Source: Kiritimatiellales bacterium (GTDB lineage: Bacteria > Verrucomicrobiota > Kiritimatiellia > Kiritimatiellales > Pontiellaceae). From it: DNA of 49,022 nt. The DNA lies in assembly GCA_016744085.1 (NCBI GenBank), contig JADGFE010000002.1, forward strand, positions 1 through 49,022. Direction: 5' to 3'. The notes beneath the pieces are model-generated. The model did no database searches and was not told the DNA's origin. It was given only the letters and a program-made list of their open reading frames with translations. Both the position numbers and the translations under genes were made by a program. Of this stretch, positions 5,193 through 30,467 are shown piece after piece. How positions within the stretch are numbered: the stretch's first letter is position 1; the number at the start of each line of letters is the position of its first letter.

Positions 5193-8100
5193 TTATGCAT
5201 CCTCAGTTAGCTTTTTTCTACTCATCCGGACTTCCTGAATAAGACAGTAAAGTACCGGAACGACGAGCATGGTGATTACCTCAATCAACATGCCTCCAAA
5301 ACTTGGAATAGCCATGGGAACCATGATATCGGAACCCCTGCCAGTTGACGTCAGAACAGGAAGTAAGGCGAGAATCGTGGTAGCGGTGGTCATTAGGCAG
5401 GCGCGAACACGTCGATTTCCTGCTTCGATGACTAAAGCTCGGATCTCTTGTTTCGTATGCAGGGTTTTGTCCCTGAATAGTTGCGTGAGGTAGGTGCCCA
5501 TGACTACGCCATCGTCGGTAGCAATGCCGAAGAGTGCGAGAAATCCTACCCAGACGGCTACGCTCATATTGATGGTATGCACTTGGAATAAATCCCGCAT
5601 TTCAACGCCAAAGAGGCTGAAATCCAAAAACCAAGGCTGTCCATAGCACCATAGCAAAATAAACCCGCCGGACCATGCGATGAAAACGCCGGTAAAGATC
5701 AGTAATGTGGTGGCCGTGGATTTAAACTCAAAGTAGATGAGCATGAAAATAGCAAAGAGCGCTATCGGCAACACCATAGCGAGTGTTTTGGAGGCCCGTT
5801 GCTGATTTTCATAGGATCCCGCGAAACGATAGCTAATGCCTCTGGGGATCTCAAATTCACCACTGTCTATTTTTGATTGTAGGTAGGCTTGAGCCTGTTC
5901 AACTACATCCACTTCGGCATAGCCTTCTTTTTTGTCGAAGACCACATAGCCAACGAGAAAGGTATCTTCCGATTTAATATTTTGCGGACCACGTACATAG
6001 CGGATATCGGCCAATTCAGTAATCGGAATTTGCTGACCGGTCATCCCCGGAATAAGTACTTTTTCAAGGGATTCAATATTATCCCTGAGTTCTCGGGCAT
6101 ATCGAACTCGGACCGGAAAACGTTCTCGTCCCTCGATAGTGCCTGTAACCTTTTTTCCGCCAATGGCAATTTCGACAATATTTTGGAACTTCCGGATCGG
6201 AATACCGTAGCGGGCTAAGGCTTCTCGATCTGGGTGAATTTCCAGATAGGGTTTACCGACAATGCGGTCGGCAATTACTGCTGCCGGTTCAACAGAGGGC
6301 ACTTCTTTCAGGAATTTCTCAATTTGAAGCCCTACCTTTTCAATGGTTTCCAAATCGGGCCCTTGCACCTTGATTCCCATCGGAGCACGCATGCCGCTTT
6401 GAAGCATGACAATTCGAGCTGCGATTGGTTGTAAGTTAGGAGCCGAGGTGGTGCCGGGGATTTTCGCGGCTTTAATGATTTCATCCCAAATATCATTCGG
6501 GGAGCGAATATGATCGCGCCACTGGCGGAATGGTCGACCACGTTTATCCTCAATCAGCTCACCATCAGCATCCCGCACAAACTCGCCTTTTACAGTCTTG
6601 TAGTTGATGCGTCGGCCATCTTTATCGGTTTTGTATTCAGGGATATAATTAATGACCGTTTCAATCATGGAGATCGGAGCGGGGTCGAGTGGCGTTTCGG
6701 CGCGACCCAGTTTTCCAACCGCTGAATCAATTTCGGGAATCGACTCAAAGGCCATATCCTGTTTTGCCAGAATATCAATAGCCTCTCCAATGGATGCATG
6801 GGTCATGGTGGTTGGCATAAAGAGAAAGGAGCCTTCATCCAGCGTGGGCATAAATTCTTTTCCGAAGCCGGGGAACCAATGTGCCATCTTTTGCATTGGA
6901 GCTGTTTTTTCGATGGCGTTTGGAAGCCATCCAAAGGTTTTGCTGAAGCCCAGCCAACTGGTCATGCCCATGGTAAACAAGATCACCGGGAGCGTTAGGA
7001 ATAGTGCTTTATGATCCAAGCACCATCTCAAAATACGCGAATAAAAGTGTTGGAAGATTTGGAAGAATCCAAGGAGACCGCCAATGAGCAGGATGACAAA
7101 GAGCAGGTTTCTGAACGTACCCCTTTCTGGGCCTAAAGGCTCCCAGTCTAGCGTGAGCAACCAACCCACACAGGCAATGACCGCGATGACGCCGATGAGT
7201 GGCAGTCCTTTTTTGATCGCTTTAACGCGGGGGGACACGATTTTTTTCTTCTTTTTCTGTTTCCAACAAAACAGGGTGTGTGAAAGCACGGGCAATACGG
7301 TTAACGCCAGAATAATGGAGGCAACCAGGGCCACTGTTTTTGTGAACGCAAGCGGTTTGAAAAGCTTACCCTCCGCACCGATCATGGTGAAGACGGGCAG
7401 GAAGCTGATCACCGTAGTAAGCACAGCAGTTAATACGGCGCTTCCCACTTCTGAGGCCGCACGATGGACGACCTCAATCCTGGATTCCTCGGGGTCCGCC
7501 TGATCGAGATGCTTGAGTATGTTTTCACAGATGACGATTCCCATGTCGACAATGGTTCCAATGGCGATGGCGATACCTGACAAGGCAACAATATTGGCCT
7601 GTACGTTGAAAAGTTTCATGCCAATGAAGCAAAATAGAACGGTCAACGGAAGCATGGTGCTGATGGCCAGCCCGGAACGTAGATGCAATACCATCATCAG
7701 TACAACAATGATGGTGATGAGCACCTGCTGTGTGATCGCTTCATTTAGGGTGCCCAGCGTTTCATAGATCAATCCGGTGCGATCATAAAAAGGGACGATG
7801 GTCACTTTACTTAGGGTCACCCATTCCGGCCATTGTGCGCGCTCAACCGAGCGTAGATACTCTTTCCAGTCCGGTTGATTGATTTGATGGTCTTTATACG
7901 CGTCAAAGCCTTGTTGAATCCCGAAATCAGTGATTTCCTGTGCCGTTGTTTTATTGAAATCAATAATGGCCTTGGAGGGGAGTGCATCTGCTGTTCCTTT
8001 TATCTTCTCTTTGACATTGGCGATGACGCGAAGCGGATTATCTCCATATCGTGCAACAACTACGCCTCCGACAGCCGGTGCACCGCCTTTATCCAGCGTC

Positions 8101-9014
8101 CCTCGACGCTGTGCAGGGCCAAGTGTTACTTTAGCTACATGCTTGACCAAAACGGGCACATTTCCAGCATTGACCTTGATCACACTATTTTCAATGTCTT
8201 CAATTTTTTTAATGAATCCGATACCGCGAATAAAATATTCAACTCGGTTCACTTCTAAGTTCTTTGCCCCCACATCCATATTGGCCCCTTGGACCGCTTT
8301 ATAGACTTCATCTACGCTGACGCCGTAGGCGCGCATCGCATCGGGATCCACATCAATTTGGTATTCGCGGACAAACCCGCCGACCGAGGCCACTTCAGCC
8401 ACGCCATCTGCCGACAAAAGCCAGTAACGCGCATACCAATCCTGTGTGGTGCGGAGTTCTTCTGGATCCCACCCGCCCGTTGGATTCCCGTCAGGGTCTA
8501 ATCCTTCCAGTGTATACCAGTAGACCTGCCCCAAAGCGGTGGCATCGGGCCCTAGAGTCGGCTGAACGCCATCCGGCAAGGTGCCTGACGGTAGCGAGTT
8601 CAGCTTTTCAAGTACGCGGGTTCGCGACCAATAGAACTCCACATCTTCTTTGAAGATAATGTAGATCGAGGAAAAGCCGAACATAGAATAAGATCGGATT
8701 GTTTTGACGCCCGGAATACCAAGAAGCTGTACGGTCAGCGGATAACCGATCTGGTCCTCTACATCCTCGGGAGATCGTCCCATCCACTCGGTAAAGACGA
8801 TTTGCTGGTTTTCTCCAATATCTGGAATGGCATCTACTGCAACGGGGTATCGCTGGAGGTCTCCGACTTTCCAATCAAATGGAGCAACGAGTAGCCCTCC
8901 AAAAATAACGGCCATTGTGAAGAGGGTAACGATCAGTTTGTTTTCCAGACAAAACCGAATCAGACGGCCTACGGGTGATTTTTGTTCGCGAGTCTGTTCT
9001 TTTTTAGTGAGCAT
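5193..9014 (-). CDS. cusA: CusA-type Cu(I)/Ag(I) RND efflux pump
   Basis: Inner-membrane proton-driven pump of the heavy-metal RND family. ATG at 9014 has GAGG upstream and is preferred to a TTG at 9026; it overlaps cusB by 11 bp. Numbered from 9014, Met733, Met783 and Met870 lie in FLFMPTT, PISMIET and RIVMLQS, the contexts of the E. coli CusA three-methionine site (573, 623, 672). The first spacing is exactly 50 in both. TIVDMGIVICEN in the fourth membrane segment carries the proton-relay Asp. At about 1273 residues it is some 225 longer than E. coli CusA: two extra hydrophobic segments follow a poly-lysine stretch at about 585-655, and a charged insert of about 38 residues lies between the second and third Met. 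Specificity for Cu/Ag is well supported. Confidence 0.95.
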   Translation of the reverse strand: MLTKKEQTREQKSPVGRLIRFCLENKLIVTLFTMAVIFGGLLVAPFDWKVGDLQRYPVAVDAIPDIGENQQIVFTEWMGRSPEDVEDQIGYPLTVQLLGIPGVKTIRSYSMFGFSSIYIIFKEDVEFYWSRTRVLEKLNSLPSGTLPDGVQPTLGPDATALGQVYWYTLEGLDPDGNPTGGWDPEELRTTQDWYARYWLLSADGVAEVASVGGFVREYQIDVDPDAMRAYGVSVDEVYKAVQGANMDVGAKNLEVNRVEYFIRGIGFIKKIEDIENSVIKVNAGNVPVLVKHVAKVTLGPAQRRGTLDKGGAPAVGGVVVARYGDNPLRVIANVKEKIKGTADALPSKAIIDFNKTTAQEITDFGIQQGFDAYKDHQINQPDWKEYLRSVERAQWPEWVTLSKVTIVPFYDRTGLIYETLGTLNEAITQQVLITIIVVLMMVLHLRSGLAISTMLPLTVLFCFIGMKLFNVQANIVALSGIAIAIGTIVDMGIVICENILKHLDQADPEESRIEVVHRAASEVGSAVLTAVLTTVISFLPVFTMIGAEGKLFKPLAFTKTVALVASIILALTVLPVLSHTLFCWKQKKKKKIVSPRVKAIKKGLPLIGVIAVIACVGWLLTLDWEPLGPERGTFRNLLFVILLIGGLLGFFQIFQHFYSRILRWCLDHKALFLTLPVILFTMGMTSWLGFSKTFGWLPNAIEKTAPMQKMAHWFPGFGKEFMPTLDEGSFLFMPTTMTHASIGEAIDILAKQDMAFESIPEIDSAVGKLGRAETPLDPAPISMIETVINYIPEYKTDKDGRRINYKTVKGEFVRDADGELIEDKRGRPFRQWRDHIRSPNDIWDEIIKAAKIPGTTSAPNLQPIAARIVMLQSGMRAPMGIKVQGPDLETIEKVGLQIEKFLKEVPSVEPAAVIADRIVGKPYLEIHPDREALARYGIPIRKFQNIVEIAIGGKKVTGTIEGRERFPVRVRYARELRDNIESLEKVLIPGMTGQQIPITELADIRYVRGPQNIKSEDTFLVGYVVFDKKEGYAEVDVVEQAQAYLQSKIDSGEFEIPRGISYRFAGSYENQQRASKTLAMVLPIALFAIFMLIYFEFKSTATTLLIFTGVFIAWSGGFILLWCYGQPWFLDFSLFGVEMRDLFQVHTINMSVAVWVGFLALFGIATDDGVVMGTYLTQLFRDKTLHTKQEIRALVIEAGNRRVRACLMTTATTILALLPVLTSTGRGSDIMVPMAIPSFGGMLIEVITMLVVPVLYCLIQEVRMSRKKLTEDA

Positions 9015-11196
9015 GCGGAACCTCAATTTTTGCTGGCTCTATCCCTTCAGCTCGCATCTGGCTGATATACTTCTCTGGATCTTCTTTGAAGGTGGTATCA
9101 CAACCGGGGCAACAAAAGTATACGCGCAAACCGTTATGGTCCGCGTAAACCTCTTTATTGATGGCCCCGCCCATGATGGGGCAAAGGGTCTGTTCGGAAG
9201 AAGGTGGTTCCGTGGAGCCCTGTGCCATAGATTTATGATTCGATTCGTTAAACGTTTGCTGTATTTCTCCGCAGCGAAGCATCATTTCCCCGAAATAGGG
9301 ATTTAATACCTCTTCTGAAGATTGCAGCCATTGTGCGCCTGCATTATCAAATGCCATCGGGCAATACGCTTGATAAATAGTTTCTGGGACAGGGAAGGTT
9401 TGAACCGTTTTAATCAACTGCTGAGAGAGCGAAAAGAATGCTTCTCGTTGATCCTCAATCGCTACAGCGGATTTTAGTGGTCGGAAGGCCGCATTGAGAG
9501 CTTTCAGATGATCCATCCAGACCCTATGAGCATCGCCCGAAAGCAATCCCATATCAATGGCATCAAGCGCCTCTTTGGTAGCTGTGGCAGCCAGTGCTGC
9601 CGCATCTGAGTCATCCCCCGCTAAGGCCTGCTGCAGCGAAAAATAGCTGCGAATCATTTTCTGAAGCTGTTGTGTGAAAGCTTCTGGCGTCATTTGAACG
9701 ATGATTTCGGAAGGTGAACCCTGATGCATCGAGTGATCAACTTTCTGGGTTTCACTAGGCATACTCATCATACTGGGTTTTGCTCGGATCTGCAGTTCTG
9801 CATCCAGTTTAAAGGCTCCTCGCGTCACAACGAGATCCCCTTCTTCGAGCCCACTCTCAACCACATAGTAATCACCAAGACGCGCACCTAAATCGACTTC
9901 CCGACCCTCATAACTTGGTTTTTCGGAATCAGGGATTTCTACGTAGACCACGGCTCGTCGCCCCGTTTTCAAGGCGGCAGTTACCGGGATTAATAGCGGA
10001 GCATTGCCTTCGTCTTCGGTAACATATCCAAGCGATTCAGCCGTAACCAGAGGCATCCCGCAGACATCACAGGGGCCAGGTTCATCTTTAATGACTTCTG
10101 GATGCATTGGACTGATCCACTTACCGGCGAGCCCTTCATCCATTACTCGGCCTCCCGCAGCCACTTTCGGACGGGCCAGCGCACGAACGAACATGCCGGG
10201 TTTGAGTCGACCTTTTTGATTATCTACGATCACGCGTATTTTGGCCGTGCGGGTAGACGCAGTAATAACAGGATCAATGAATGAGATCGTTCCAGTGAAT
10301 GTTTCTCCCGGATACGTTACGGTTGAAAATTCGATTTTCCCGCCATATTTTAGCCAGTTCAAATCACTTTCATACGCATCTAGCTGCACCCAAACGGTAG
10401 ATAGATCAGCAATCGTATAAATGCGTGTTCCTGTTTGAACATACATACCTTCTTGCGCATTTTTATGGATTACAATACCCGCTCCCGGAGAGTAGATGGT
10501 CATATGTTCACTCGGCGCTTCGCTTTGCTCCACATCGGCAATTTGTTGGGCGGAGAACCCCCAAAGGCGTAGCTTTTCACGGGCGGCGTCGACGGTTTTC
10601 TTGGCGGTTTCAACCAGTGTACTGCTCTGGCTTTCTTTTAGGCTTTCCAACGTACGAATCGCCTGTAGGAGTTCTTCTTGTGTGGTGAATAATTCAGGAC
10701 TATAGATTTCCGCGAGATGGTCGCCTTTATTGACCGAAATGCCGGTGTAGTCGACAAATAGTCGGTCAATACGACCTGCAACCCATGAAGAGATATAGGA
10801 GGTGCCGGTTTCGTCATAATCCACCTTACCGATCATTCGAACTTCTGCTTCTCCAAAGCGGCGCATGGCAGGTGTCGTTTCCAGTTCCATCAGTTTGGCG
10901 GCATATTTACTGATCCGAACCTCCCGTTCTCCGCCCCCATCATCCCCGGCTTCAAGAAGAATGAGATCCATGAAACAGATCGGGCATTTTCCAAACTTAG
11001 GCAATTGGATCTGCGGATGCATAGAGCAAGTCCAGACCTCCGGCTCATTGGATACCTCTTCGGTATGGCCATGTGCTTCATCCGGCTCGGTGTGTTTTGC
11101 TCCTGATCCGGTGAGTCGCCCGATTATAAATGTCATGAAGATGATGCCAGTGGCAATCAACCCGACTTTAATCTTTTTTTTATTCAATTTCATCAT
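9004..11196 (-). CDS. cusB: CusB-type periplasmic adaptor with extra metal-binding domains
   Basis: 730 residues, about twice the usual adaptor. Order: N-terminal membrane anchor (about 10-28); heavy-metal-binding domain WTCSMHPQI...CPICFMDL (54-78); membrane-fusion barrel/lipoyl/hairpin part (about 95-345); a second metal-binding domain SPMHPEV...CDVCGMPL (362-383); the adaptor's last domain (about 400-470); a Met/His linker; a DUF3347-like helical domain (about 500-650); and a YHS domain CPIMGG...VYFCCPGC (672-699). It should link CusA to the outer-membrane channel and hand over Cu(I). The added YHS and DUF3347-like parts resemble proteins encoded separately elsewhere, so several metallochaperones seem fused onto one adaptor. 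ATG at 11196 follows AAAGGACAT. Confidence 0.95.
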   Translation of the reverse strand: MMKLNKKKIKVGLIATGIIFMTFIIGRLTGSGAKHTEPDEAHGHTEEVSNEPEVWTCSMHPQIQLPKFGKCPICFMDLILLEAGDDGGGEREVRISKYAAKLMELETTPAMRRFGEAEVRMIGKVDYDETGTSYISSWVAGRIDRLFVDYTGISVNKGDHLAEIYSPELFTTQEELLQAIRTLESLKESQSSTLVETAKKTVDAAREKLRLWGFSAQQIADVEQSEAPSEHMTIYSPGAGIVIHKNAQEGMYVQTGTRIYTIADLSTVWVQLDAYESDLNWLKYGGKIEFSTVTYPGETFTGTISFIDPVITASTRTAKIRVIVDNQKGRLKPGMFVRALARPKVAAGGRVMDEGLAGKWISPMHPEVIKDEPGPCDVCGMPLVTAESLGYVTEDEGNAPLLIPVTAALKTGRRAVVYVEIPDSEKPSYEGREVDLGARLGDYYVVESGLEEGDLVVTRGAFKLDAELQIRAKPSMMSMPSETQKVDHSMHQGSPSEIIVQMTPEAFTQQLQKMIRSYFSLQQALAGDDSDAAALAATATKEALDAIDMGLLSGDAHRVWMDHLKALNAAFRPLKSAVAIEDQREAFFSLSQQLIKTVQTFPVPETIYQAYCPMAFDNAGAQWLQSSEEVLNPYFGEMMLRCGEIQQTFNESNHKSMAQGSTEPPSSEQTLCPIMGGAINKEVYADHNGLRVYFCCPGCDTTFKEDPEKYISQMRAEGIEPAKIEVPHAH

Positions 11197-11211: not shown

Positions 11212-11943
11212 TTACCATGTAAAGTGTTCCAAACCATATACCAACAAGCCACCCAAATGTCCGGTAGCCGCGACGCTTCCTGCACTCAGCATCAGAAATC
11301 CTCGATAGATCCAAATCAACTGCGACTTTCCTTTCCGAATTCCGAGTTCTAATGCCGCCGCAGCGAGAAATGCCAATATGAAGGTGAAAATGCCCAAGGA
11401 GCGGTGAATCATTAAGACTCGCTGGTAAGTTTCCGGATAGGCTGAACCAGAGGCCGCAGCAAAACCGAGGATGATGGCTGCTACGGCCCCTAGAACAGCC
11501 AGAAGGATGTTGAAACGGGCTGCGCTCCGGAAGAGGGTGCGAGATCCGAAGCACAGAAAAAGAAGCTCTGCCAAGGCGGCCATTAAAATGAGACCGATTG
11601 GAATGTGAACAGCAACTGGGTGAAATTTCCCTACAAACTTGATCAATCGAGATGATGAGGTCGTTTCGGCATCATGATCAGTGGCATGATCATGGCTATC
11701 TTTCGATACTTGAACCTCGGGTAGGTTTTCTATGTATTCCTGAGGGTTTTCAGAAAACATACTTACACACATTTTGCAACAGAAGTAGATACGTTGCCCC
11801 TCGTGATCAATAAATAGGGATGGATCAATAGGGTTTCCAACCATCACAGGGCATGTTGCCTGTCGTGGCGTTTCTTCGGCGATGCTTAAACCGGCATAGA
11901 GGAGACAGCTCCATAGAGCGACGATTAGCCATCTTATCTTCAT
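11212..11943 (-). CDS. YHS domain fused to DUF2231 membrane protein
   Basis: 243 residues. A signal peptide (about 1-22) is followed by a YHS domain with TCPVMVGNPI and IYFCCKMC (about 28-75). After a His/Asp linker comes a DUF2231-type membrane domain (about 95-240) with KFHPVAVHIPIGL and four to five hydrophobic segments. YHS domains of this kind bind copper; DUF2231 proteins are common in copper and cytochrome-related operons but their function is not settled. The start overlaps the upstream TolC-family stop (TAATG) and the end is 16 bp from cusB. A role in periplasmic copper handling at the inner membrane is inferred from neighbours. Confidence 0.85.
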   Translation of the reverse strand: MKIRWLIVALWSCLLYAGLSIAEETPRQATCPVMVGNPIDPSLFIDHEGQRIYFCCKMCVSMFSENPQEYIENLPEVQVSKDSHDHATDHDAETTSSSRLIKFVGKFHPVAVHIPIGLILMAALAELLFLCFGSRTLFRSAARFNILLAVLGAVAAIILGFAAASGSAYPETYQRVLMIHRSLGIFTFILAFLAAAALELGIRKGKSQLIWIYRGFLMLSAGSVAATGHLGGLLVYGLEHFTW

Positions 11944-13223
11944 TATTTCTCTCCGAACATTGCGGCTGAAATATAGTTATTTCCGGTGAGACGGCTAAGA
12001 GCTGCGCGACTAATGAGATGGTCGGCTAATGCACGCTCATAGGATAATTCGAATTCGAGCAAGACGCGTTCTGCATCAATCAGATTGATGAATTCCATCT
12101 GTCCTGCCTCATACCCTTTTCGATTCACCTCCAGAGATTGTTGGGCTTTGGGAATAAGGCTTTTTTTGTATAGGTTAATTTTTCGGTCAGCATCCCGCAA
12201 TTTAAACAAGATCTGTTGGATATCAGCATCCAAAGTTTGCTCCCTATTCTCCAGTGTTAACTGAGCGGCTGTTTTTTGATAATTCGCGGAAGCTATGCGA
12301 GCGCGGTTTTTTCCAAACCAAATGGGTAAGTTAATGCCAATGGTTCCGATAATAGCATCCTGCCCACTGTCGGAAACAGCCATGGCCGCTTCACCCGTGT
12401 CAATATACTGCACTCCAAGTGTGAAGTCAGGGAAGCGTTCGCGCTTCGCAAGCTGAACCCGATGAGAACCTTGTGCTACATTGTGCGCCAACGCCGAAAG
12501 TTCAGGGCTGGTTTGTTGGAGTTGCTTGAGCACGGTTTGTTCATCAATTTTAATTAGTGAATAAGAGAGATCTGTAGGCCATGGGAGAGATGCATTAGGC
12601 GGTCGATTGAGCGCCGCATTGAGTCGGGCTATTTTGGCTCCGCGCTGGTCGTTCAAAGATGAAAGGCGATCCTCAAGGCGGCCAAGTTCTACTTGTGCTT
12701 GAAGACTGGGAGCCAGTGGCGCTCCAGTTTTGTACCGAGCCATCGCTACTTTTTCGAGATCCTGAACAAGCGTGATACGATCCTTTGTAATATCAATACT
12801 TCGTTTCAAGTAGTAGAGTTCTGCATAAGCTTCAGTAATAACGGCATCGAGGTTTAGCTTCTCCTGCTTGTAGCGTTCTCCGAAGGCGGATGAAAGGTCG
12901 GTAGCAATTGATTCTTGTAAGGATAGTTTTCCGAATCCTGGAAATTTCTGAGAAAGTCCAAAACGTTGGTTTTGTGGTCCAACACGGGTTTCAACGGATT
13001 CAAAATAGTATCCATATGTTAACATGGGATCTGGCAGTGCCTTTTGTACGGAAATATTCTCTTGCAACCCTTTCCACTGGTTAAAAGCAGCTTGAAGTTG
13101 AGGATTGTTCTCTGCTCCGTATTGCAACGCGGCTTCCAATGTTAGGTTGGTCTGTAATGAATCCGCCAGACCGGGCAATGCCGTTGCACTTAGCATAATC
13201 AGCAGTATTGAATATTTCAGCAT
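11943..13223 (-). CDS. cusC: TolC-family outer-membrane channel of the Cus system
   Basis: 426 residues with a signal peptide (MLKYSILLIMLSATALPGLA), then two long helical repeats typical of outer-membrane efflux proteins: LEAALQYGAENNPQLQAA at the start of the first and AYAELYYLKRSIDI, LNRPPNASLPWP and YEAGQMEFINLIDAERVLLE further on. It lacks the lipobox Cys of E. coli CusC, so it is probably not acylated. It would be the outer-membrane exit duct for CusBA. ATG at 13223 follows AAAGGAATAACC, and 77 bp with a strong inverted repeat separate it from the YHS gene upstream. The symbol reflects operon position rather than close similarity. Confidence 0.9.
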   Translation of the reverse strand: MLKYSILLIMLSATALPGLADSLQTNLTLEAALQYGAENNPQLQAAFNQWKGLQENISVQKALPDPMLTYGYYFESVETRVGPQNQRFGLSQKFPGFGKLSLQESIATDLSSAFGERYKQEKLNLDAVITEAYAELYYLKRSIDITKDRITLVQDLEKVAMARYKTGAPLAPSLQAQVELGRLEDRLSSLNDQRGAKIARLNAALNRPPNASLPWPTDLSYSLIKIDEQTVLKQLQQTSPELSALAHNVAQGSHRVQLAKRERFPDFTLGVQYIDTGEAAMAVSDSGQDAIIGTIGINLPIWFGKNRARIASANYQKTAAQLTLENREQTLDADIQQILFKLRDADRKINLYKKSLIPKAQQSLEVNRKGYEAGQMEFINLIDAERVLLEFELSYERALADHLISRAALSRLTGNNYISAAMFGEK

Positions 13224-13300: not shown

Positions 13301-13630
13301 TTAGTGCTGGTGACCGCTGTGACTGTCGGCCTTTTTAGCTGCTGGCTTCATTTTTTTCATTTCGGCTTTGTCGAGCGTAATCCCTTTCGCTTCGAGCTGT
13401 TTGATATATTTGTCAGGGGCGGCCTTTATTTTTCCAATGCAACCGGGGCAACATACGTAGATACGTTTTCCATTCACATCCGCGTATTGAGCTTTATTTA
13501 TTTTCCCACCCATGACAGGACATGTCGTCTGCTTTTTGACTTCGGTTTTCTTTTCTGCTGCATGGACTGTGATAATTCCCATTCCGATGATTGCGGCGAC
13601 TAAGACGGTCATTACTTTTCTACGTTTCAT
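13301..13630 (-). CDS. Small periplasmic YHS-domain protein
   Basis: 109 residues. A signal peptide ending around HAAEK is followed by one YHS domain: TTCPVMGGKINKAQYAD, then KRIYVCCPGCIGKIKAAPDKYIKQLE, with the CPVMGG and VCCPGC motifs that make the likely copper site. The C-terminus ends in a Lys-rich tail and HSGHQH, possible extra metal ligands. ATG at 13630 follows AGGAGTAATAAA. It is a close paralogue of the gene at 13694-14020, evidently a tandem duplication. Likely job: a periplasmic copper-binding protein passing metal to CusB or CusC, by context. Confidence 0.85.
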   Translation of the reverse strand: MKRRKVMTVLVAAIIGMGIITVHAAEKKTEVKKQTTCPVMGGKINKAQYADVNGKRIYVCCPGCIGKIKAAPDKYIKQLEAKGITLDKAEMKKMKPAAKKADSHSGHQH

Positions 13631-13693
13631 TTTATTACTCCTAATACTGATATTTGTTAATTTGGCTGAGAGTTATACTGGGTGATTTTATAT

Positions 13694-14020
13694 TTAATGT
13701 GAACCGCATCCACCACATCCGCTCTTACTGGCGGAAGCATCCTGTTTTTTGGTAGATTTTTCAAGAGCGATCCCTTTGTTTTCGAGCTGCTTTATGTATT
13801 TATCTGGGGCAGCTTTGATCTTGCCGATACATCCGGGGCAGCAGACATAAATACGTTTTCCTTTCACATCTGCGAATTGAGCTTTGTTTATTTTTCCTCC
13901 CATCACCGGGCAGGTGGTTTGCTTTTTAGGCTCCGCTTTTTTTTCTTCCGCCTGTGCTGAGATGAGCCCTATCCCAATGATTGCGGTTACCACTAATGCC
14001 ATGATATTTCTACGTTTCAT
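13694..14020 (-). CDS. Small periplasmic YHS-domain protein (tandem paralogue)
   Basis: 108 residues from ATG at 14020, chosen because AAGGAGTAAGATA precedes it; an in-frame start at 14062 would overlap the upstream gene and spoil the signal peptide. A signal peptide (about 1-23) precedes a YHS domain with TTCPVMGGKINKAQFAD and RIYVCCPGCIGKIKAAP, nearly identical to the next gene downstream. The tail differs: it ends KSGCGGCGSH, which adds two Cys and a His. The duplicated pair with different metal-ligand tails suggests gene dosage or slightly different partners. Confidence 0.85.
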   Translation of the reverse strand: MKRRNIMALVVTAIIGIGLISAQAEEKKAEPKKQTTCPVMGGKINKAQFADVKGKRIYVCCPGCIGKIKAAPDKYIKQLENKGIALEKSTKKQDASASKSGCGGCGSH

Positions 14021-14048
14021 TATCTTACTCCTTAGTTGTTGTTTCAAT

Positions 14049-14648
14049 TTACTGGTGTCCATTATGAGGACTATGCTTGATCATTTCTTTATAGTCATAA
14101 TTGATAAACCAGAACGGGGTTTCGTTTTCGCTCAGCAGGTGGTCGGGGTGAACATGCAGGCTCGGATTTTCAGGCCAACCCTTTTTGCCAATACGTTTGC
14201 TGGTTTCTTTGTACGCCACCCGTTCCCCATTGATTACAATGGCCGCTGCACTATCGATTTCATTGTTCTCAACATCATATCGCTTTACACAGTTGGGATG
14301 CATATAGACGTAGGCCACGTGATTGCCGGGGGCGATGTTGATGTAGGTAGTTTGCTCTGAGAGGACCACCGGCTTATCGCTTCCATGATCACCAACCAGC
14401 GCAAAGTGTTTCACCGTTAGCTCATCGATCCAGTCACCGTCTGTTTCATACTCGACTGTCAGGCGAAGCCAGCGTTGTGATGCTCCCTGCTCATGATCCT
14501 GTTCAGTCTCTACGGTGAAATAGGGCGTATAGACATTGTCCTCAACTTCGATGCTTTTTATTTTCACAGTGGACTCTGCATGTGAGGTCATGATTGCCAG
14601 TGTCACTAATAACGTCGATGCGATCATTTTGTAATGTAGTGTTTTCAT
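14049..14648 (-). CDS. Secreted protein of unknown family in the copper operon
   Basis: 199 residues with a clear signal peptide (about 1-24, ending SHAES). The mature part is predicted all-beta and polar, with TVEYETDGDWIDEL, a HVAYVYMHPNCVKRYD segment and a His-rich end (LHVHPDHLL, IKHSPHNGHQ). I do not recognise the family. ATG at 14648 has GCAAGGAGCGAT upstream. It lies between the receiver-only gene and the YHS pair, with 25 bp and 28 bp gaps, so it is probably in the same transcript. The single Cys next to Met/His and the His-rich tail suggest metal binding, but that is inference only. Confidence 0.75.
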   Translation of the reverse strand: MKTLHYKMIASTLLVTLAIMTSHAESTVKIKSIEVEDNVYTPYFTVETEQDHEQGASQRWLRLTVEYETDGDWIDELTVKHFALVGDHGSDKPVVLSEQTTYINIAPGNHVAYVYMHPNCVKRYDVENNEIDSAAAIVINGERVAYKETSKRIGKKGWPENPSLHVHPDHLLSENETPFWFINYDYKEMIKHSPHNGHQ

Positions 14649-14673: not shown

Positions 14674-15024
14674 TTAATTATAGATGGCTGCTTTTAGCTG
14701 ATGAATATCGATGGGTTTCGGTAGGATTTGATCGATCCCTAGCCCCTCAGAATTTATCTGACTAATTAAATCCGTGTGGGCGCTCATAAGAATAATCTTG
14801 CACTTGAACGAAGGGTCTTTTTCCAATCGGAAAATCAGCTCATCCCCATTCATTTCAGGCATTGAGTAATCCGTCAGGAGCACATCAACCGGTTCGTTTC
14901 TAACCACGTGAAACAGCATCTCTTCTGGATTCGAAAAGGTTACAATTTCATGCCCTTCTGCCCGAAGTACAAGTTCAAGGCTTCGAAGGATCGACGTGTC
15001 GTTATCAATGATTACTATTTTCAT
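14674..15024 (-). CDS. Receiver-only response regulator
   Basis: 116 residues from ATG at 15024, chosen because AGGAGAAAGCTG lies directly before it. It is a single REC domain: acidic pocket IIDNDTS at the N-terminus, phospho-acceptor Asp52 in LLTDYSMPEMNG, switch residue in ILMSAHTD, and the Lys of LPKPID. There is no output domain. It is the first gene behind the predicted sigma-54 promoter and next to an NtrC-type regulator and kinase. It could act as a phosphate sink for the kinase, or as a protein-interaction switch. Being under the control of the pathway it might dampen would make a feedback loop; that is inference. Confidence 0.9.
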   Translation of the reverse strand: MKIVIIDNDTSILRSLELVLRAEGHEIVTFSNPEEMLFHVVRNEPVDVLLTDYSMPEMNGDELIFRLEKDPSFKCKIILMSAHTDLISQINSEGLGIDQILPKPIDIHQLKAAIYN

Positions 15025-15048
15025 CAGCTTTCTCCTGCTAACTCTAAC

Positions 15049-15063
15049 GCACAAGGTGTGCCA
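15049..15063 (-). promoter_or_regulatory. Sigma-54 (-24/-12) promoter of the Cus operon
   Basis: Leftward reading gives TGGCACACCTTGTGC: a GG and a GC exactly 10 bases apart, with TGGCAC perfect at -24 and TGTGC in place of TTGC at -12. Transcription would start near 15037, giving a leader of about 13 bases that contains the AGGAG of the receiver gene at 15024. An NtrC-type activator gene with the sigma-54 GAFTGA loop ends just upstream. Confidence 0.7.
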
Positions 15064-15109
15064 GCGGGGAAAACTCAGTAAAACCGGGGTTTTTACGAAA
15101 ATAGGCCCG

Positions 15110-15163
15110 ATGGATCGAGATCCATGTGGTCAGAATCTGGTGGGTCACCAATCAGAAACTGGT
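15110..15163 (-). promoter_or_regulatory. Candidate activator binding sites upstream of the sigma-54 promoter
   Basis: Two direct repeats on the plus strand, TCAGAATCTGGT (15130-15141) and TCAGAAACTGGT (15152-15163), differ at one base and start 22 bp apart, close to two helical turns, so they lie on one DNA face. Both lie in GGTCAC-rich surroundings. A perfect palindrome, ATGGATC-GA-GATCCAT, occupies 15110-15125. They sit about 75-130 bp upstream of the predicted start, the usual place for enhancer sites of NtrC-type activators. A further AAAACC-GG-GGTTTT hairpin (15080-15093) lies between, perhaps a weak terminator for the regulator gene. Confidence 0.6.
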
Positions 15164-15169
15164 CACTTA

Positions 15170-16531
15170 TTATTTGGAGGGACGCACTAGATCGTAGTCG
15201 CTGATCTTTTTACGCAATGTGGTCGGAGAGATGTCTAATGTTCTGGCCGTTTGCGAGATGTTCCAATCCTGAGCTTCAAGGACATACTGTATGTATCCTT
15301 TTTCTTCTTCAGCCAATGAATGGAGAGGTCGTTTTTTGATGTCGGGAGACGGTCTGTCAGCAGAAGGATTTCCTAAGAAATGGATATGTTCAGGGAGGAT
15401 CTGGGGCGATTCACTTAAGGCCACCGCTCGTGTGATTACATTTTCCAGCTCACGCACATTGCCAGGCCATGAATGCCGCGCAAGTAAGTGAAGCGCCTCA
15501 TCGGAAAAACATGTGACCGTACGCTGCATTTTTTGGCTAATACGATTTAAAAAATGATTCGCCAGTAAAACAATATCTTCACCGCGTTCTCGTAGCGGGG
15601 GGATGAGGATTTCTCCGACCACTACACGATAATAAAGGTCTTCCCGGAACGTTCCTTCTTTAACCATCTCGGCTAGATTTCGGTGCGTCGCAAAAACAGC
15701 TCGCCCTTTAAAATATAAGGGTTGGTTTCCTCCGACTCGCTCATACTGTTTTTCTTGGAGAACCCGCAATAACTTGGCCTGCAGATCTAAATCCATATCA
15801 CCAATTTCATCGAAGAAAACGGTGCCGTTCTTGGCAAGTTCAAGCTTACCGACCTTCTGCCGGTCGGCTCCTGTGAAGGCTCCCTTTTCATGACCGAATA
15901 GTTCGCTTTCCAACAGAGTGGCCACGATGGCGGAACAATTAATCGCCACAAAAGGTTTCCCTGGAGATGACGCTCCATGAATGGCACGCGCCACCAGCTC
16001 TTTTCCGGTACCGCTTTCTCCATGAACCAGCACGTTTACATGTCCCCGGGAAAAACGCCCGACTTGTTTGAGGATCTCCAAAACCTGGGGATCATTTCCG
16101 ATGATCTCATCCGGTTGCGTAATTCTGACCTCCGGTTGTTCATCCTTTTGTTCGCTGGAGGTAGAGCGATCAAGCTCCCGCCTAACTTTTTCCAAAATCA
16201 ACTCTACATCATTCACATCAAAAGGTTTGCGGAGATAATCGTACGCTCCCTTTTTCATGGCTTCAATCGTGGCCGCCATATCTTGCCGCCCCGATATGAT
16301 TACAACAGGGACCGTTGGATTTTTCTGAGAGATCTGATCTAGAATTTCGAGGCCGTCCCCATCGGGTAAAACCAGATCCAGAAGAATGAGATCAGGACAG
16401 AACTCCATCATGCTTTCAATACCTTGCTCAGCAGAGGAGCAAACTTCAACGTTGTACCCTTTCCCTTCCAGAATAAGCTGAATAGATCGGCACAAAGCCA
16501 CATCATCATCGATCATTAATAATTTATTCAT
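15170..16531 (-). CDS. NtrC-family sigma-54-dependent response regulator
   Basis: 453 residues: REC domain (1-120) with phospho-acceptor Asp52 in LILLDLVLPDGDG; AAA+ domain (about 145-375) with Walker A GESGTGKE, the sigma-54-contacting GAFTGA loop, Walker B FFDEIGDMD and the arginine finger region; and a C-terminal Fis-type HTH (about 410-450, WNISQTARTLDISPTTLRKK). The ATG at 16531 overlaps the kinase gene by 8 bp, so the two form a translationally coupled two-component pair. The sigma-54-like promoter just downstream is its obvious target. Its signal is not visible from sequence, but the context argues for copper or another metal in the periplasm. Confidence 0.95.
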   Translation of the reverse strand: MNKLLMIDDDVALCRSIQLILEGKGYNVEVCSSAEQGIESMMEFCPDLILLDLVLPDGDGLEILDQISQKNPTVPVVIISGRQDMAATIEAMKKGAYDYLRKPFDVNDVELILEKVRRELDRSTSSEQKDEQPEVRITQPDEIIGNDPQVLEILKQVGRFSRGHVNVLVHGESGTGKELVARAIHGASSPGKPFVAINCSAIVATLLESELFGHEKGAFTGADRQKVGKLELAKNGTVFFDEIGDMDLDLQAKLLRVLQEKQYERVGGNQPLYFKGRAVFATHRNLAEMVKEGTFREDLYYRVVVGEILIPPLRERGEDIVLLANHFLNRISQKMQRTVTCFSDEALHLLARHSWPGNVRELENVITRAVALSESPQILPEHIHFLGNPSADRPSPDIKKRPLHSLAEEEKGYIQYVLEAQDWNISQTARTLDISPTTLRKKISDYDLVRPSK

Positions 16532-18278
16532 TCGCCGAACCTCCCATGGGAAGAGTTATTGAAAAAACAGAGCCTTCCGGAGAGGAGACAAAAGAAATCG
16601 TGCCTCCGTGTAATTCAACAATTTTTTTAACATTGGGTAATCCCAGTCCCGTTCCCCGTTTTTTGGTCGTAAAGAAAGGCTCAAACAGCTTTTCCCCAAC
16701 CCGATCAGAAATTCCACTACCATGATCCCGAACCTCTAACACCGTTTCTAAAGGCTCACTCTCACGAACGGTTAAAGTGACGGCACCATCTGCTGGACTG
16801 GCTTGAAGGGCGTTGTCTACCAAGTTAGTGACCGCCCGAAGCATCTGCTCTTTATCAACAAACAACGGGCTGTGATGATTATTTACGACATCAAGTGAGA
16901 CATTCTCAACCTCTTCACCCCGAACACACGAGGCAACTTCCTTGCAGAAATCATCTACGGAAACAGCCACCTTATGCAGTTCGATTTTTTTCCCGAATAA
17001 CAGCAGATCATTGAGCATGGTTTCCAGTCGACGGGCCTGATCAGACGCTATTTCCGCCAATTCCGCATGAACAGGATCATCATTCACAACACCTCTCAAA
17101 ACACTAAGGTTCATCATGACGGCGGATAGTGGGTTTCGCATTTCATGCACGATGCTCGCACTTAACTTTCCAATGGCAGACAACGCTGCGGCGTGAGCTA
17201 ATGCCTCTTTGGCTCGTTCAATCTCATCGAGCATCTGATTAAACGCGTCGGCAACCTGAACATGCTCCCGCCCCGGAAAATGCTTCATACGGGTATCAAA
17301 ATGACCTTCCGATACCGACAGAGCAACGTCGGCCATGTGGCGCAACGGGGTACTGATCTTTTTGGCCGACTTTGCGGCTAACCAAAGCACCAGAGACAAC
17401 GCGATCAGCCCGGTAATCACCGCCCGGACTTTTAGATGGTGTAGCCACATGAATGCGTGCTTCGTTTCAGCTTCCGTAAGCAGTATCCACCCAAGCTCAT
17501 CAATGTGGGTCGCCACACCAACCACAGTTCGCTGATCAAAATTACGATAGACGACGGGTTTATCTCCTGCGTTATTTAGCACTTCGGGAAGCTTTACCAT
17601 CCTCTCAGTCGATGTGGTTTCATCTGGAAGTCCCGTCAAAAGAAGTCCGGTTTCAGAAACAATGCATGATTGAACCGCTGTCGCCTCACTGGTTTCCGGA
17701 GCCAATGCAGGATAGACCGTAGATGACAGCTCAAGCACCGCAATAATATATTTGGCTGAAGACTCATGTTTTACATCTAGCGGAATACCAATATGAATAC
17801 CAATCATGCCATCCTCATGAATATGAGGTTTTGACAGAATGGCTCCCTCCGCATTTTTCAGCTCTTCTTTAAACGAAGGAGGCAGAAGTAGGTTTTCATC
17901 GTGCACCTTGCTCTTCCGGCCCCAAACCGGTTGCCATTCTTTGGAATACAGTTCGATACTTTCATACGCAGAATTATTTAACAGGAACGAGGATTCAATG
18001 GCGGCCTCAATAATCGGGCAGTTTGTAGAGGGGGTTCGGTGCAGATCTAAGGCAACGAACCGGCTGAGCATCATCAGTTCGTTGCTGCGTTCGTGAATCC
18101 AGTCCACAATTCGCTGCTCTTTGGCCTGCGCCACCACTTGAAGTTGCTCGTGTTTTAGTTCCAGCACAGCCTGTCGAGCGCAGTGATACCCTTGAACCGC
18201 CATGATAACCAACGGAGCAATCGCCACAGCAATCATCCAACGTCGAACGCTCTCTGCAATGCTCCTGTTCTTTTTCAT
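16524..18278 (-). CDS. Membrane sensor histidine kinase
   Basis: 584 residues. First membrane segment about 14-31; periplasmic sensor of about 250 residues (Cache-like by layout); second membrane segment about 286-302; HAMP (about 303-355); a HisKA dimerisation helix with phospho-acceptor His378 in SIVHEMRNPLSAV; and an ATPase domain with NLVDNALQA, DHGSGI and GTGLGLPNVKKIVELHGG. It should autophosphorylate and phosphorylate the coupled NtrC-type regulator. The sensor region contains several His and Met but no classic CusS or CzcS signature, so the ligand is unknown. ATG at 18278 follows AAATAGGAGTTTCC and is 9 bp from the csoR stop. Confidence 0.93.
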   Translation of the reverse strand: MKKNRSIAESVRRWMIAVAIAPLVIMAVQGYHCARQAVLELKHEQLQVVAQAKEQRIVDWIHERSNELMMLSRFVALDLHRTPSTNCPIIEAAIESSFLLNNSAYESIELYSKEWQPVWGRKSKVHDENLLLPPSFKEELKNAEGAILSKPHIHEDGMIGIHIGIPLDVKHESSAKYIIAVLELSSTVYPALAPETSEATAVQSCIVSETGLLLTGLPDETTSTERMVKLPEVLNNAGDKPVVYRNFDQRTVVGVATHIDELGWILLTEAETKHAFMWLHHLKVRAVITGLIALSLVLWLAAKSAKKISTPLRHMADVALSVSEGHFDTRMKHFPGREHVQVADAFNQMLDEIERAKEALAHAAALSAIGKLSASIVHEMRNPLSAVMMNLSVLRGVVNDDPVHAELAEIASDQARRLETMLNDLLLFGKKIELHKVAVSVDDFCKEVASCVRGEEVENVSLDVVNNHHSPLFVDKEQMLRAVTNLVDNALQASPADGAVTLTVRESEPLETVLEVRDHGSGISDRVGEKLFEPFFTTKKRGTGLGLPNVKKIVELHGGTISFVSSPEGSVFSITLPMGGSANE

Positions 18279-18286
18279 GGAAACTC

Positions 18287-18562
18287 CTATTTAGACAATC
18301 GTTTCACTGCCGTCATGATCTCTTCGATCTTAACGTCCACTTCATCTGGCGAGTTGCGGGCATCCGTCACACAATGCCGGATATGCTTTTCCAGAATAAT
18401 TTTACTCACGGACTGTAATGCAGATCTGGCCGCTTGGATCTGCGTGATAATATCGATGCAGTATTCCTCCTCTTCAATCATTCGAACAACCCCTTTGACT
18501 TGGCCTTCAATCCTTGCCAGTCGGGATACATTCTCATGATGAGTTGTCTTGGATATATCCAT
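18287..18562 (-). CDS. csoR: CsoR-family metal-sensing repressor
   Basis: 91 residues from ATG at 18562, chosen because AAGGAGATTGAT precedes it. The family fold (three helices, R..RIEGQVKGV.RMIEEE.YC.DI..QI.A..SAL) is complete. Cys35, His60 and Cys64 match the Cu(I) fingerprint of CsoR (Cys36, His61, Cys65 in M. tuberculosis), unlike the HCHH or HCHD sets of RcnR and FrmR. An N-terminal HH pair at 8-9 leaves some doubt. Such proteins bind operator DNA when metal-free and release it on Cu(I) binding. It is probably the first gene of csoR-kinase-regulator and represses its own promoter through the repeat 27 bp upstream. Confidence 0.92.
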   Translation of the reverse strand: MDISKTTHHENVSRLARIEGQVKGVVRMIEEEEYCIDIITQIQAARSALQSVSKIILEKHIRHCVTDARNSPDEVDVKIEEIMTAVKRLSK

Positions 18563-18588
18563 ATCAATCTCCTTATCTGCGGGTACAA

Positions 18589-18607
18589 TATACCCTATAT
18601 GGGTATA
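18589..18607 (-). promoter_or_regulatory. Probable CsoR operator overlapping the csoR promoter
   Basis: TATACCC-TATAT-GGGTATA is a perfect 7-5-7 inverted repeat, starting 27 bp before the csoR ATG. G-tract dyads of this form are the usual CsoR-family operators. A plausible leftward promoter brackets it: TTACTG as -35 and TATATT as -10, with an 18-base spacer that contains most of the dyad, so a bound repressor would block RNA polymerase. A further imperfect GGGTA...TACCC pair overlaps it at 18581-18595. Confidence 0.75.
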
Positions 18608-18654
18608 ATTCAGTAAAATAGAGACCAATTTGATACTTTATCTGATGCATGTAG

Positions 18655-21435: not shown

Positions 21436-21477
21436 ATTTACAGGCGAGCAAATGATATGCCCGCCTCGTTCTCCGGC

Positions 21478-24609: not shown

Positions 24610-26427
24610 TTAGTCGTCAGTGCAACCAGCACCCAAGCGTGATTTAAGAAATTCAGACATCGCGATGAAGCTTCCCTGAACAACAATTTGATCGGTCTCG
24701 CTGATTCCCAAAAGAATATCAACTCTGCTGTCATTCACATTCCCCAGCACAACTCTCCGAAGAGCAAGAAGATCGACACCCTCCTTCACGAACAGATAGG
24801 GATTGCCTTCCAGACGTTGAATAGCATCCTTTGGAATACAAAATGTTTTCGTCGCTTGCCCTGTTTTAATCACTGCCTGACCAAACATACCTGCCTTGAT
24901 CTTGCCGCCATCATTGGGAATAATGGCACGGGCCTTAAGCATGCGACTACGTTCGTCAATCGATGTTGCAACCCAAAAAATATTTCCTTCCGAAACAACA
25001 CCGGCACGGCTGTTAAACGAAGCCTGCACATCCAAACCTTGCTCGACAAAGTTGGCCTGATTCGCGGGGATGGAAAGCTCAAGCCACATGCTGTTTAGGT
25101 TGGCCAAGGTAAACAAAGCGTCACCGGGGCTTACGACCTCGCCGACCACGGCCTCACGTAATATCAAGGTGCCACTAAATGGAGCTCGGACGGAAAAGGA
25201 AGATGAGCTGTCGTGAGCTTTTTCAATTTGTTCAATCTCTTCCTCCGTAAATCCATAATTCAGTAACCTTTGGTGCGCAGTAGATTGAGCAAGGGTGGCA
25301 ATATCAAAGCTTGCCTTGGCCTCCTGGAATTCCCGGGTTGCAGATATTTTTTCCTTCACGAGCTTCTCTTCGCGTTTGCTTGCCATCTCTTTGACTTGCA
25401 CATCGGCAATGGCCGAAAGATACGCAGCCTTTGCCTCCGCAATTTCTGCCGAGTTGACTTCAACAAGAACATCTCCTGCTTCAACCCGGGCCCCGATGTT
25501 GGCCAAAACACGTTGAATCACACCGGAGGCCAAAGGAGTGATGCGAGCCATTTCATTCCCGTTGTAGTTGACTTCGCAAAACGCCTCTATTCGTGGTGCG
25601 GACAAGCTCACCGATGGACGTGCAGTACGGAGTCCCGCTTTTGAGATGGATTGCTCAGACACAAATCTGACCTTCATGCTCTCGCCAGGCTTTAAATCCG
25701 CAGCAAGTTCTGGCTGACAGATTCCGCATTCATGTTCCGGCACTCTGTGCTCGTTGCATAGCAGGACAGGCCGATCTTTTGACGATGCCTTATTCGGGAT
25801 ACCGGTGGTTTCTTCCAGCTCTGGGTGGCAGAAATAACACTCGTCCTCATATAGATCATGTTCTTCGCAGAAAAGCCGTTTGCTGTCCTTTAATTCAGGG
25901 TGGCAGATAAAGCACCGATCTTCATAACGGTTGTGTTCCTTACACCACAGCCGACCTTTTTCCCGGAGTGAGGGATCACAGATAAAACACTTGCTCGCAG
26001 GAACACCGTGTTCGCTGCATTGCTTGAGCTTTGAAGAATGGTCGGAGTCCCGTTTTCCCGTTATCGCAGGGCGGGCTTGTTTTTTAACATCAGGATGACA
26101 TGCGAAGCATTCATCTTCATAAAGACCATGTTCTTCGCAAAAGAGGCGAGCGTTATCTTTTAGATCAGGGTGGCAGATAAAGCACCGATCCTCATAACGG
26201 CTGTGCTCCTTGCACCATAGCCGACCTTTTTCTCGGAGTGAGGAATCGCAGATAAAACACTCATTATTAGCAATCCCATGCTCCGTGCACGTGCCTGCCT
26301 TTACAGAACTTTCAGTTTTCTCGCCGGATGCAGAAGTTGTCGTGACGGCAATTGCCGATAGGATGAAAATGGAGCCTGCAATGAGACTCAACTTGGACAT
26401 AAACTTTTTATTTGGTTTTTGAGACAT
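24610..26427 (-). CDS. czcB: CzcB-type adaptor with seven Cys/His modules
   Basis: 605 residues. An N-terminal membrane or signal segment (about 10-33) is followed by seven short modules (residues 47-242) of the form C..EH....E..C..C.P.L, starting at Cys47, 72, 97, 137, 162, 187 and 224. Modules 1-3 and 4-6 are a duplicated 90-residue block. Then come the usual adaptor parts (barrel-sandwich hybrid and helical hairpin, about 265-420; beta-barrel to about 600). Each module could hold one metal ion or a structural zinc through three Cys and one or two His. This gives the adaptor a periplasmic metal-collecting arm not seen in model CzcB. The protein bridges CzcA and the outer-membrane CzcC. CAGGAGAATAACC precedes the start. 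Confidence 0.9.
   Translation of the reverse strand: MSQKPNKKFMSKLSLIAGSIFILSAIAVTTTSASGEKTESSVKAGTCTEHGIANNECFICDSSLREKGRLWCKEHSRYEDRCFICHPDLKDNARLFCEEHGLYEDECFACHPDVKKQARPAITGKRDSDHSSKLKQCSEHGVPASKCFICDPSLREKGRLWCKEHNRYEDRCFICHPELKDSKRLFCEEHDLYEDECYFCHPELEETTGIPNKASSKDRPVLLCNEHRVPEHECGICQPELAADLKPGESMKVRFVSEQSISKAGLRTARPSVSLSAPRIEAFCEVNYNGNEMARITPLASGVIQRVLANIGARVEAGDVLVEVNSAEIAEAKAAYLSAIADVQVKEMASKREEKLVKEKISATREFQEAKASFDIATLAQSTAHQRLLNYGFTEEEIEQIEKAHDSSSSFSVRAPFSGTLILREAVVGEVVSPGDALFTLANLNSMWLELSIPANQANFVEQGLDVQASFNSRAGVVSEGNIFWVATSIDERSRMLKARAIIPNDGGKIKAGMFGQAVIKTGQATKTFCIPKDAIQRLEGNPYLFVKEGVDLLALRRVVLGNVNDSRVDILLGISETDQIVVQGSFIAMSEFLKSRLGAGCTDD
25813..26289 (-). repeat. 270-bp-period duplication inside czcB
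   Basis: The segments 26083-26289 and 25813-26019 encode the same three Cys/His modules (residues 47-115 and 137-205), offset by 270 bp. Nucleotide identity is high; for example TGGCAGATAAAGCACCGATC occurs in both at 25901 and 26171. A recent in-frame duplication, or gene conversion, is likely. The region could expand or contract by recombination. Confidence 0.9.
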
Positions 26428-29528: not shown

Positions 29529-30467
29529 TCAGTCAAAAAGGGTTCCAGACTCCGTGGCTGTAGTTTTCCAAGATTCTGCCCTAATGGTCTCCTTGACTTT
29601 CTCCAAGGACGGGGTCCCATCTTTTCGTCCGCGAATGGGAGATCCTCCCTTTTCAATGAAATGAGGATTGGCCTCAGCCGAAGGATCAGGCGTGGCGTAC
29701 TCGATAACGAACAACGGACGATTCCGCTTTAGGGTTTCTTCCCCAGCAGCGAACGTCCCGCCGCTTAAACCGGACTCCACAAGAATCATCGCGTCGGAAA
29801 GCCCGATGATGGTGCTATTTCTTTTCATGGCGTTCCGTCCACTCCATGTCAGTCGCGGAGGAAATTGAGACACGAATAAATGGTTTTCAGAGGTCAACAG
29901 ATCGGCGATGTCACTCTTAATTTGAAAGCGAAGGATTCCTTCTACCAAAACAAAGACCGTGGTTCCGCCATGTCCCAGTGCGCTTTTATGAGCTGCCATA
30001 TCAACCCCGTGCGCGTAGCCGCTAACGACATTCAAGCGGGACTCCGCCAGTTGCGCCGCGCAACGGGCGGTTATTCCTAGCCCTTTTTCAGACGCATTTC
30101 TCGAACCACAAAAACCGGCTCCTAGAGCATTCAAAAGCGAGCGATTTCCTTTAACGAAGAGGACAGAGGGGGCGTTGTTCTGTAATATCGATGATAGCCG
30201 CTCGGGATAATCTTCTGAGTTCCACCGAACAAGAGTGACGTTGTTTGAATCGAGCTGAGAGACGACTTCTTCCGCCTCCATTTTAGCTTCCTTTATATTC
30301 TTTGCGACCTCGGGCTTAAGCTTTAATTCGGATGCTAACAATATGGGATTGTTGCATAATGCACCAGCGGCTGTGTCCCCATGGATTTCCGCGTAGGTGA
30401 AAAATTTACGAAGGGCGGCGTCTCCGGCTCCTTTGGCGCAAATAAACTGTAAAATCGGTATGTTCAT
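29529..30467 (-). CDS. DprA/Smf-like Rossmann protein
   Basis: 312 residues. The DprA core is present: GFCGSRNASEKGLGI (about 118-132), then VVSGYAHGVDMAAHKSALGHGGTTVFVL and a later SGGTFAAGEETLKRNRPLFV. Typical DprA binds single-stranded DNA and loads RecA during transformation. The N-terminal helices are present, but the winged-helix C-terminus of many DprA proteins is missing. The ATG overlaps the phosphoribosyltransferase stop by four bases. In competence, DprA works with ComFC, itself a phosphoribosyltransferase-like protein, so this coupled pair looks like a repurposed DprA/ComFC couple inside a defence operon. A nucleotide- or DNA-sensing role is inference. Confidence 0.88.
   Translation of the reverse strand: MNIPILQFICAKGAGDAALRKFFTYAEIHGDTAAGALCNNPILLASELKLKPEVAKNIKEAKMEAEEVVSQLDSNNVTLVRWNSEDYPERLSSILQNNAPSVLFVKGNRSLLNALGAGFCGSRNASEKGLGITARCAAQLAESRLNVVSGYAHGVDMAAHKSALGHGGTTVFVLVEGILRFQIKSDIADLLTSENHLFVSQFPPRLTWSGRNAMKRNSTIIGLSDAMILVESGLSGGTFAAGEETLKRNRPLFVIEYATPDPSAEANPHFIEKGGSPIRGRKDGTPSLEKVKETIRAESWKTTATESGTLFD

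Follow-up and report, generated by a model that had tools for sequence, protein, structure and literature searches.

A predicted sigma-54 promoter with paired activator sites upstream of a cus copper efflux operon in Kiritimatiellales

In Escherichia coli, the CusA-type copper/silver efflux operon cusCFBA is under two-component control by CusRS, with CusR being an OmpR-type regulator that works with sigma-70. A sigma-54 promoter stays silent unless an activator powered by ATP engages it; a costly metal pump placed behind one therefore gains a tight off state. An activator of this kind has been tied to copper in Myxococcus xanthus, where CorSR—a sensor kinase and a sigma-54-activating regulator—controls copper resistance genes, four putative sigma-54 promoters being described for the curA operon (PMC3707914). 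Likewise, E. coli ZraSR-zraP combines a metal-linked kinase, an NtrC-family regulator, sigma-54 and few targets, but is dedicated to zinc and envelope stress and acts on a periplasmic chaperone gene (PMC7657598). Type-2 operators of the repressor CsoR share the consensus ATATACCCCTNAGGGGTATAT, with the core ATACCC-N5-GGGTAT and a TAC-N9-GTA frame, and the type-2 systems control an ATPase directly (PMC3902906).

The locus reported here lies in a window (the whole stretch of DNA analysed) of 49,022 nucleotides. Its regulator shares the domains of the CorSR regulator (receiver, Sigma54_activat, HTH_8), and both systems have predicted sigma-54 promoters. However, CorSR acts on a multicopper oxidase, the CopA ATPase and others as opposed to a Cus RND pump, its regulator gene sits inside its own operon, its second control is the sigma factor CorE rather than CsoR, and CorR binding sites are left without definition in the accessible part of the report (PMC3707914). 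Relative to ZraSR, the regulator scores about half the ZraR equivalog cut-off (359.5 versus 760 bits) and falls below every cut-off among its best NCBIfam equivalog matches. Relative to CusRS, the operon's neighbour is of the NtrC rather than the OmpR type, and the promoter is of the sigma-54 class. Core and frame of the type-2 CsoR operators match a site before csoR, yet the probable target of CsoR here is a two-component system instead of an ATPase. The initial annotation had called sigma-54 control of a cus operon unusual. This holds in part: in CorSR, a sigma-54 regulator is already tied to copper genes, but a literature search to which subscription journals were mostly closed returned only CorSR as a close case, and neither a cus RND operon under sigma-54 with a defined conserved activator site nor a coupling to CsoR. 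Sigma-54 control of copper genes is thus known, whereas the Cus RND operon as target, the defined activator site and the CsoR coupling, as predicted from the sequence, appear to be new.

Layout of the cus locus

According to ORF calls and profile matches, the locus is encoded entirely on the minus strand: czcCBA is followed by p154, a gene for a ZntA-like P1B ATPase, csoR, the kinase gene and ntrC, and then, after a gap of 145 nt, by an operon with the order receiver-p199-YHS-YHS-tolC-DUF2231-cusB-cusA. The gap is flanked by the NtrC-type regulator gene on one side and the stand-alone receiver gene (ATG at 15024) on the other. Orthologues of the regulator were compared in six other genomes, three from the same genus (66-85% identity) and three from the same class (54-56%); class- and phylum-wide searches returned no further close orthologues. 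A cus operon lies downstream of the regulator orthologue in five of the six (G025, G009, G008, G080 and G134), the G134 contig stopping inside the YHS genes. The sixth, G126, encodes orthologues of kinase and regulator, while neither cusA nor the tandem dyad described below was found in its assembly, which is judged to be 88% complete. The operon of the window's genome (G000) consists of:

14674..15024, minus strand: stand-alone receiver, operon gene 1 (PF00072; D9, D52 and K103 invariant in the alignment)
14049..14648, minus strand: p199, a conserved 199-aa protein for which an orthologue was found in G008 only
13301..14062 (13694-14062 and 13301-13630), minus strand: two small YHS-like, Cys-rich proteins, syntenic among orthologues
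11943..13223, minus strand: TolC-family outer membrane factor (profile match)
11212..11943, minus strand: DUF2231 membrane protein with a YHS-like N-terminus (Pfam)
9004..11196, minus strand: CusB-like adaptor with HMBD, DUF3347 and a weak YHS match (Pfam)
5193..9026, minus strand: CusA-type RND pump (family match; alignment of Met ligands)

Pump residues M737, M787 and M874 align with M573, M623 and M672, the Cu/Ag-binding methionines of E. coli CusA, and so form the periplasmic Met triad; from a CusA-type pump with this triad, we predict the operon to export copper or silver. The stand-alone receiver retains its phosphorylation residues. A CPVMGGKI/CCPGC sequence is common to both small YHS-like proteins and the cusB C-terminus, the latter matching PF04945 (YHS) weakly and below the cut-off. 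The Pfam search gave no match for the 13301-13630 protein itself and none for p199, whose family was not recognised, and an Rfam search of the window returned 0 matches.

Sigma-54 element and paired dyads in the intergenic gap

The following features were located in the gap:

15049..15063 (read 15063 down to 15049), minus strand: sigma-54 -24/-12 element TGGCACACCTTGTGC (sequence; aligned in G025, G009, G008, G080 and G134)
15032..15036, minus strand: AGGAG ribosome site of the receiver gene (sequence; kept across the genus)
15152..15162, minus strand: putative upstream activating site 1, dyad CCAGTTTCTGA (kept in five orthologous loci; tandem pair unique in the genome)
15130..15140, minus strand: putative upstream activating site 2, dyad CCAGATTCTGA, 22 bp from site 1 (same evidence as site 1, and shuffles)

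As originally described, TGGCACACCTTGTGC keeps the GG-N10-GC spacing, with GG at -24 and GC at -12, and the predicted start at ~15037 would fall right at the AGGAG (15036-15032), the initial annotation having put it just before the ribosome site. The element departs from the consensus TGGCACRNNNNTTGCW at two positions, with a G for T before the TGC and a G for A/T after it. On its own, it is evidence of little force, because loose -24/-12 matches are no commoner in the window than in shuffles, and exact consensus sites across the whole genome barely outnumber those in a reversed control (6 versus 4, no clear excess). Within this particular intergenic region, TGGCA[CT]N6TG[CT] arose in only 30 of 20,000 shuffles. 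The exact genomic sites all fall outside ORFs of 300 nt or more (6/6), and four of them lie 28-63 nt before an ORF, as would fit sigma-54 promoters that are at work in this genome. The window's genome encodes RpoN (G000:C98; PF04552, E 4.7e-59), as do all seven genomes. No sigma-70-like site was found in the 145-nt gap. Elsewhere in the window, a sigma-54-like match before p154 (21447-21462) was rejected because it has two mismatches and lacks neighbouring paired dyads.

The two 12-bp repeats reported previously are indeed present (TCAGAATCTGGT at 15130-15141 and TCAGAAACTGGT at 15152-15163) and exactly 22 bp apart, but each is really a small dyad of the form YCAG-N3-CTGR. Since the variation across loci (centre TTT, ATT, AAA or TTA; first base C or T) preserves the symmetry, the direct repeats are more aptly described as a pair of small inverted repeats. 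Each would suit one dimer of a Fis-type HTH protein, and the pair is set two helical turns apart. In dinucleotide shuffles of the gap, the strict dyad pair appeared in 0 of 20,000 for every genome. A genome-wide search of G000, G025, G009 and G134 for the mismatch-free tandem dyad gave a single match in each, always at the cus locus, against zero control matches.

Inspecting the orthologous loci, the gap before the receiver gene contained two YCA[GT]-N3-CTGR sites and a TGGCA[CT]-N6-TG[CT] element in all five, although G025 and G009, as close relatives whose operon bodies look recently shared, are not fully independent. The spacing of the dyads over the six loci, which span two families of the class, is 22, 22, 22, 21, 23 and 22 bp, and their centre is 84-100 bp from the -24 position, with the promoter always downstream. 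In the window this distance is 85 bp, placing the pair within the -80 to -150 range of activators. G008 has 1.3 kb with an unrelated ORF between ntrC and the operon, yet its dyads still lie 84.5 bp from the promoter, implying that the sites are tied to the promoter rather than to ntrC; its element carries GT in place of GC. This phylogenetic footprinting supports a functional promoter with paired sites. In a more distant locus from Hydrogenedentota (L032; regulator 49% identical), whose neighbour is a Cu-type ATPase, a paired dyad accompanied by a promoter was not detected in the gap. As a separate observation on G008 (locus L116), the ~1.2 kb of extra sequence from ntrC to the receiver gene includes a small ORF whose C-terminus resembles a PEP-CTERM sorting signal and leaves the sigma-54 control region intact.

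Two other repeats lie in the gap. The 16-bp palindrome ATGGATCTCGATCCAT (15110-15125) of the initial annotation exists, its 7-bp arms flanking a TC centre that is not itself palindromic, but it is absent from all orthologous intergenic regions; it was dropped as an operator and assigned no role. An AT-rich imperfect inverted repeat, GTAAAAACCCCGGTTTTAC (15078-15096), lies between the activator sites and the promoter, and similar yet differing inverted repeats take its place in G025, G009 and G008. As a terminator it was rejected, since it folds no better than shuffles in G000, G025 and G009 (z 0.2 to 0.8); a clear hairpin exists at the counterpart in G008 only. No convincing terminator was found between ntrC and the operon.

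A two-component system beneath a predicted CsoR operator

Upstream of the gap, the regulatory genes are arranged as follows:

15170..16531, minus strand: NtrC-family response regulator with receiver, AAA+ domain with GAFTGA, and HTH_8 (Pfam; alignment)
16524..18278, minus strand: sensor kinase (periplasmic region with invariant H126, H152, H154 and H162)
18287..18564, minus strand: CsoR-family repressor with C-H-C copper ligands (Pfam; alignment with CsoR structures)
18588..18608, minus strand: predicted CsoR type-2 operator TTATACCCATATAGGGTATAT, upstream of csoR (consensus in PMC3902906)

The GAFTGA loop noted earlier in the adjacent regulator was found, together with a receiver, an AAA+ domain and a Fis-type HTH, whose recognition helix, ISPTTLRKKI, is nearly invariant among orthologues. 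In the kinase, the four invariant histidines plausibly form a metal site; a dCache_1 match covers the periplasmic region in five of eight aligned kinases. The conserved histidines of this sensor kinase family follow a pattern of HxH and then H-x-G ~7 residues on in the Cache-like region; the Hydrogenedentota locus shares the family, there beside the copper-type ATPase. The kinase structure was also modelled from an alignment of two rows, but the result (mean pLDDT 43) was too poor for judging His clustering and was set aside.

The C-H-C ligand set and the type-2 operator together place the repressor among the CsoR proteins. TTATACCCATATAGGGTATAT agrees with the 12 most conserved positions of the type-2 consensus and with its TAC-N9-GTA frame. 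The window's genome has a single copy of the core ATACCC-N5-GGGTAT; this core also precedes csoR in G025 and G009, and in G008 it is found ~1 kb ahead of the gene. The longest csoR ORF (start 18628) overruns the operator; the likely start is an ATG near 18562-18564, after AAGGAG. A second copy of the operator in G009, ATACCCTATGGGGGTAT (locus L148, C200), lies in front of a gene for a permease and a further csoR, which supports the operator assignment. csoR precedes the kinase gene in four genomes of the genus, while G080 and G134 gave no csoR match in the sequence examined. CsoR would probably gate the synthesis of kinase and regulator, and csoR-kinase-ntrC with its conserved operator suggests a two-tier copper cascade.

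The reading that we favour, and hold to be very likely, is that sigma-54 polymerase drives the cus operon, with activation by the two-component system next to it and gating by CsoR. Control by the adjacent NtrC-type regulator, as first proposed, is supported by the retention of promoter, paired sites and spacing in five other loci, and further by RpoN, the GAFTGA loop and a CusA-type pump with three Met ligands. The kinase would sense periplasmic metal and phosphorylate the regulator, dimers of which would bind the two dyads on one face of the DNA, centred ~110 bp upstream of the start; the dimers would then assemble into the AAA+ ring, contact the closed complex by looping and, by hydrolysing ATP, open the promoter. 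CsoR would probably repress csoR-kinase-regulator until cytoplasmic Cu(I) rises, such that the regulator is made on demand, and the stand-alone receiver, as the operon's first product, would probably provide feedback by drawing phosphate off the kinase. Whether all these parts join into one two-compartment cascade strikes us as an even call: cytoplasmic Cu(I) would free csoR-kinase-ntrC from CsoR, only after this could periplasmic metal, read by the His-rich Cache-like sensor, fire the cus promoter through the paired dyads, and the co-transcribed receiver would shut the kinase down. This would amount to an AND gate with built-in feedback, which, in the literature accessible to us, was not found described for cus operons.

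Alternative modes of control

Could most transcription of the operon instead come from csoR-kinase-ntrC by read-through, under the control of CsoR, with the sigma-54 element acting only as a booster? All genes share one orientation, the CsoR operator is clear and the gap yielded no strong terminator. Against this stand a full promoter and paired sites kept under selection in the gap, the 1.3 kb with a further ORF that intervenes in G008, and the same sites in G080 and G134 despite their lack of a csoR match; we consider read-through unlikely as the main source of transcripts, though it may add to the expression of the operon. A sigma-70-type promoter, with the -24/-12 match and repeats being coincidence or remnants, seems highly improbable: a lone -24/-12 element is not rare in a genome, but the geometry is fixed in six loci, shuffling never reproduced the dyad pair, and the gap has no sigma-70-like site.

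Control by sigma-54 might also respond to another signal, either zinc or, more broadly, several divalent metals, on the pattern of ZraSR, making the locus a switch for general metal or envelope stress. The catalytic part of the kinase is closest to ZraS in the PDB, czcCBA and the ZntA-like (Zn/Cd-type) ATPase adjoin in the window, and His-rich sensors are able to bind zinc. Yet the czc and zntA genes are not beside the kinase in G025 and G009, the paired site precedes the cus operon only, and the regulator is far under the ZraR cut-off. Given the Met ligands of the controlled CusA pump and the copper ligands of CsoR, we regard a zinc signal as quite unlikely.

Under sigma-54 control in response to copper, this lineage probably switches copper export on by an enhancer-type mechanism and not by the textbook CusRS route. 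The locus is also a caution that cus operons should not automatically be annotated as under CusRS. For a branch of NtrC-type regulators that is still uncharacterised, it provides a defined candidate activator site, two copies of YCAG-N3-CTGR at a spacing of 22 bp. It further offers a connection, open to experiment, from a copper repressor in the cytoplasm to a two-component system that senses the periplasm.

Three further features of the window lie outside the cus operon. A CzcB-like adaptor (24610-26427) has several N-terminal Cys/His repeats of the CxEHGxxxxxCFIC type, possibly a metal-loading region. At 29529-31357, a DprA-like and phosphoribosyltransferase-like pair, matched by PADLOC to PsyrA/ShosA and weakly to ShosT/PsyrT, is a candidate PsyrTA/ShosTA-like system. 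Two genes at 36163-40217 gave strong PADLOC matches to A and B of the candidate system PDC-M23, and the large helicase among them is also similar to Hachiman HamB.
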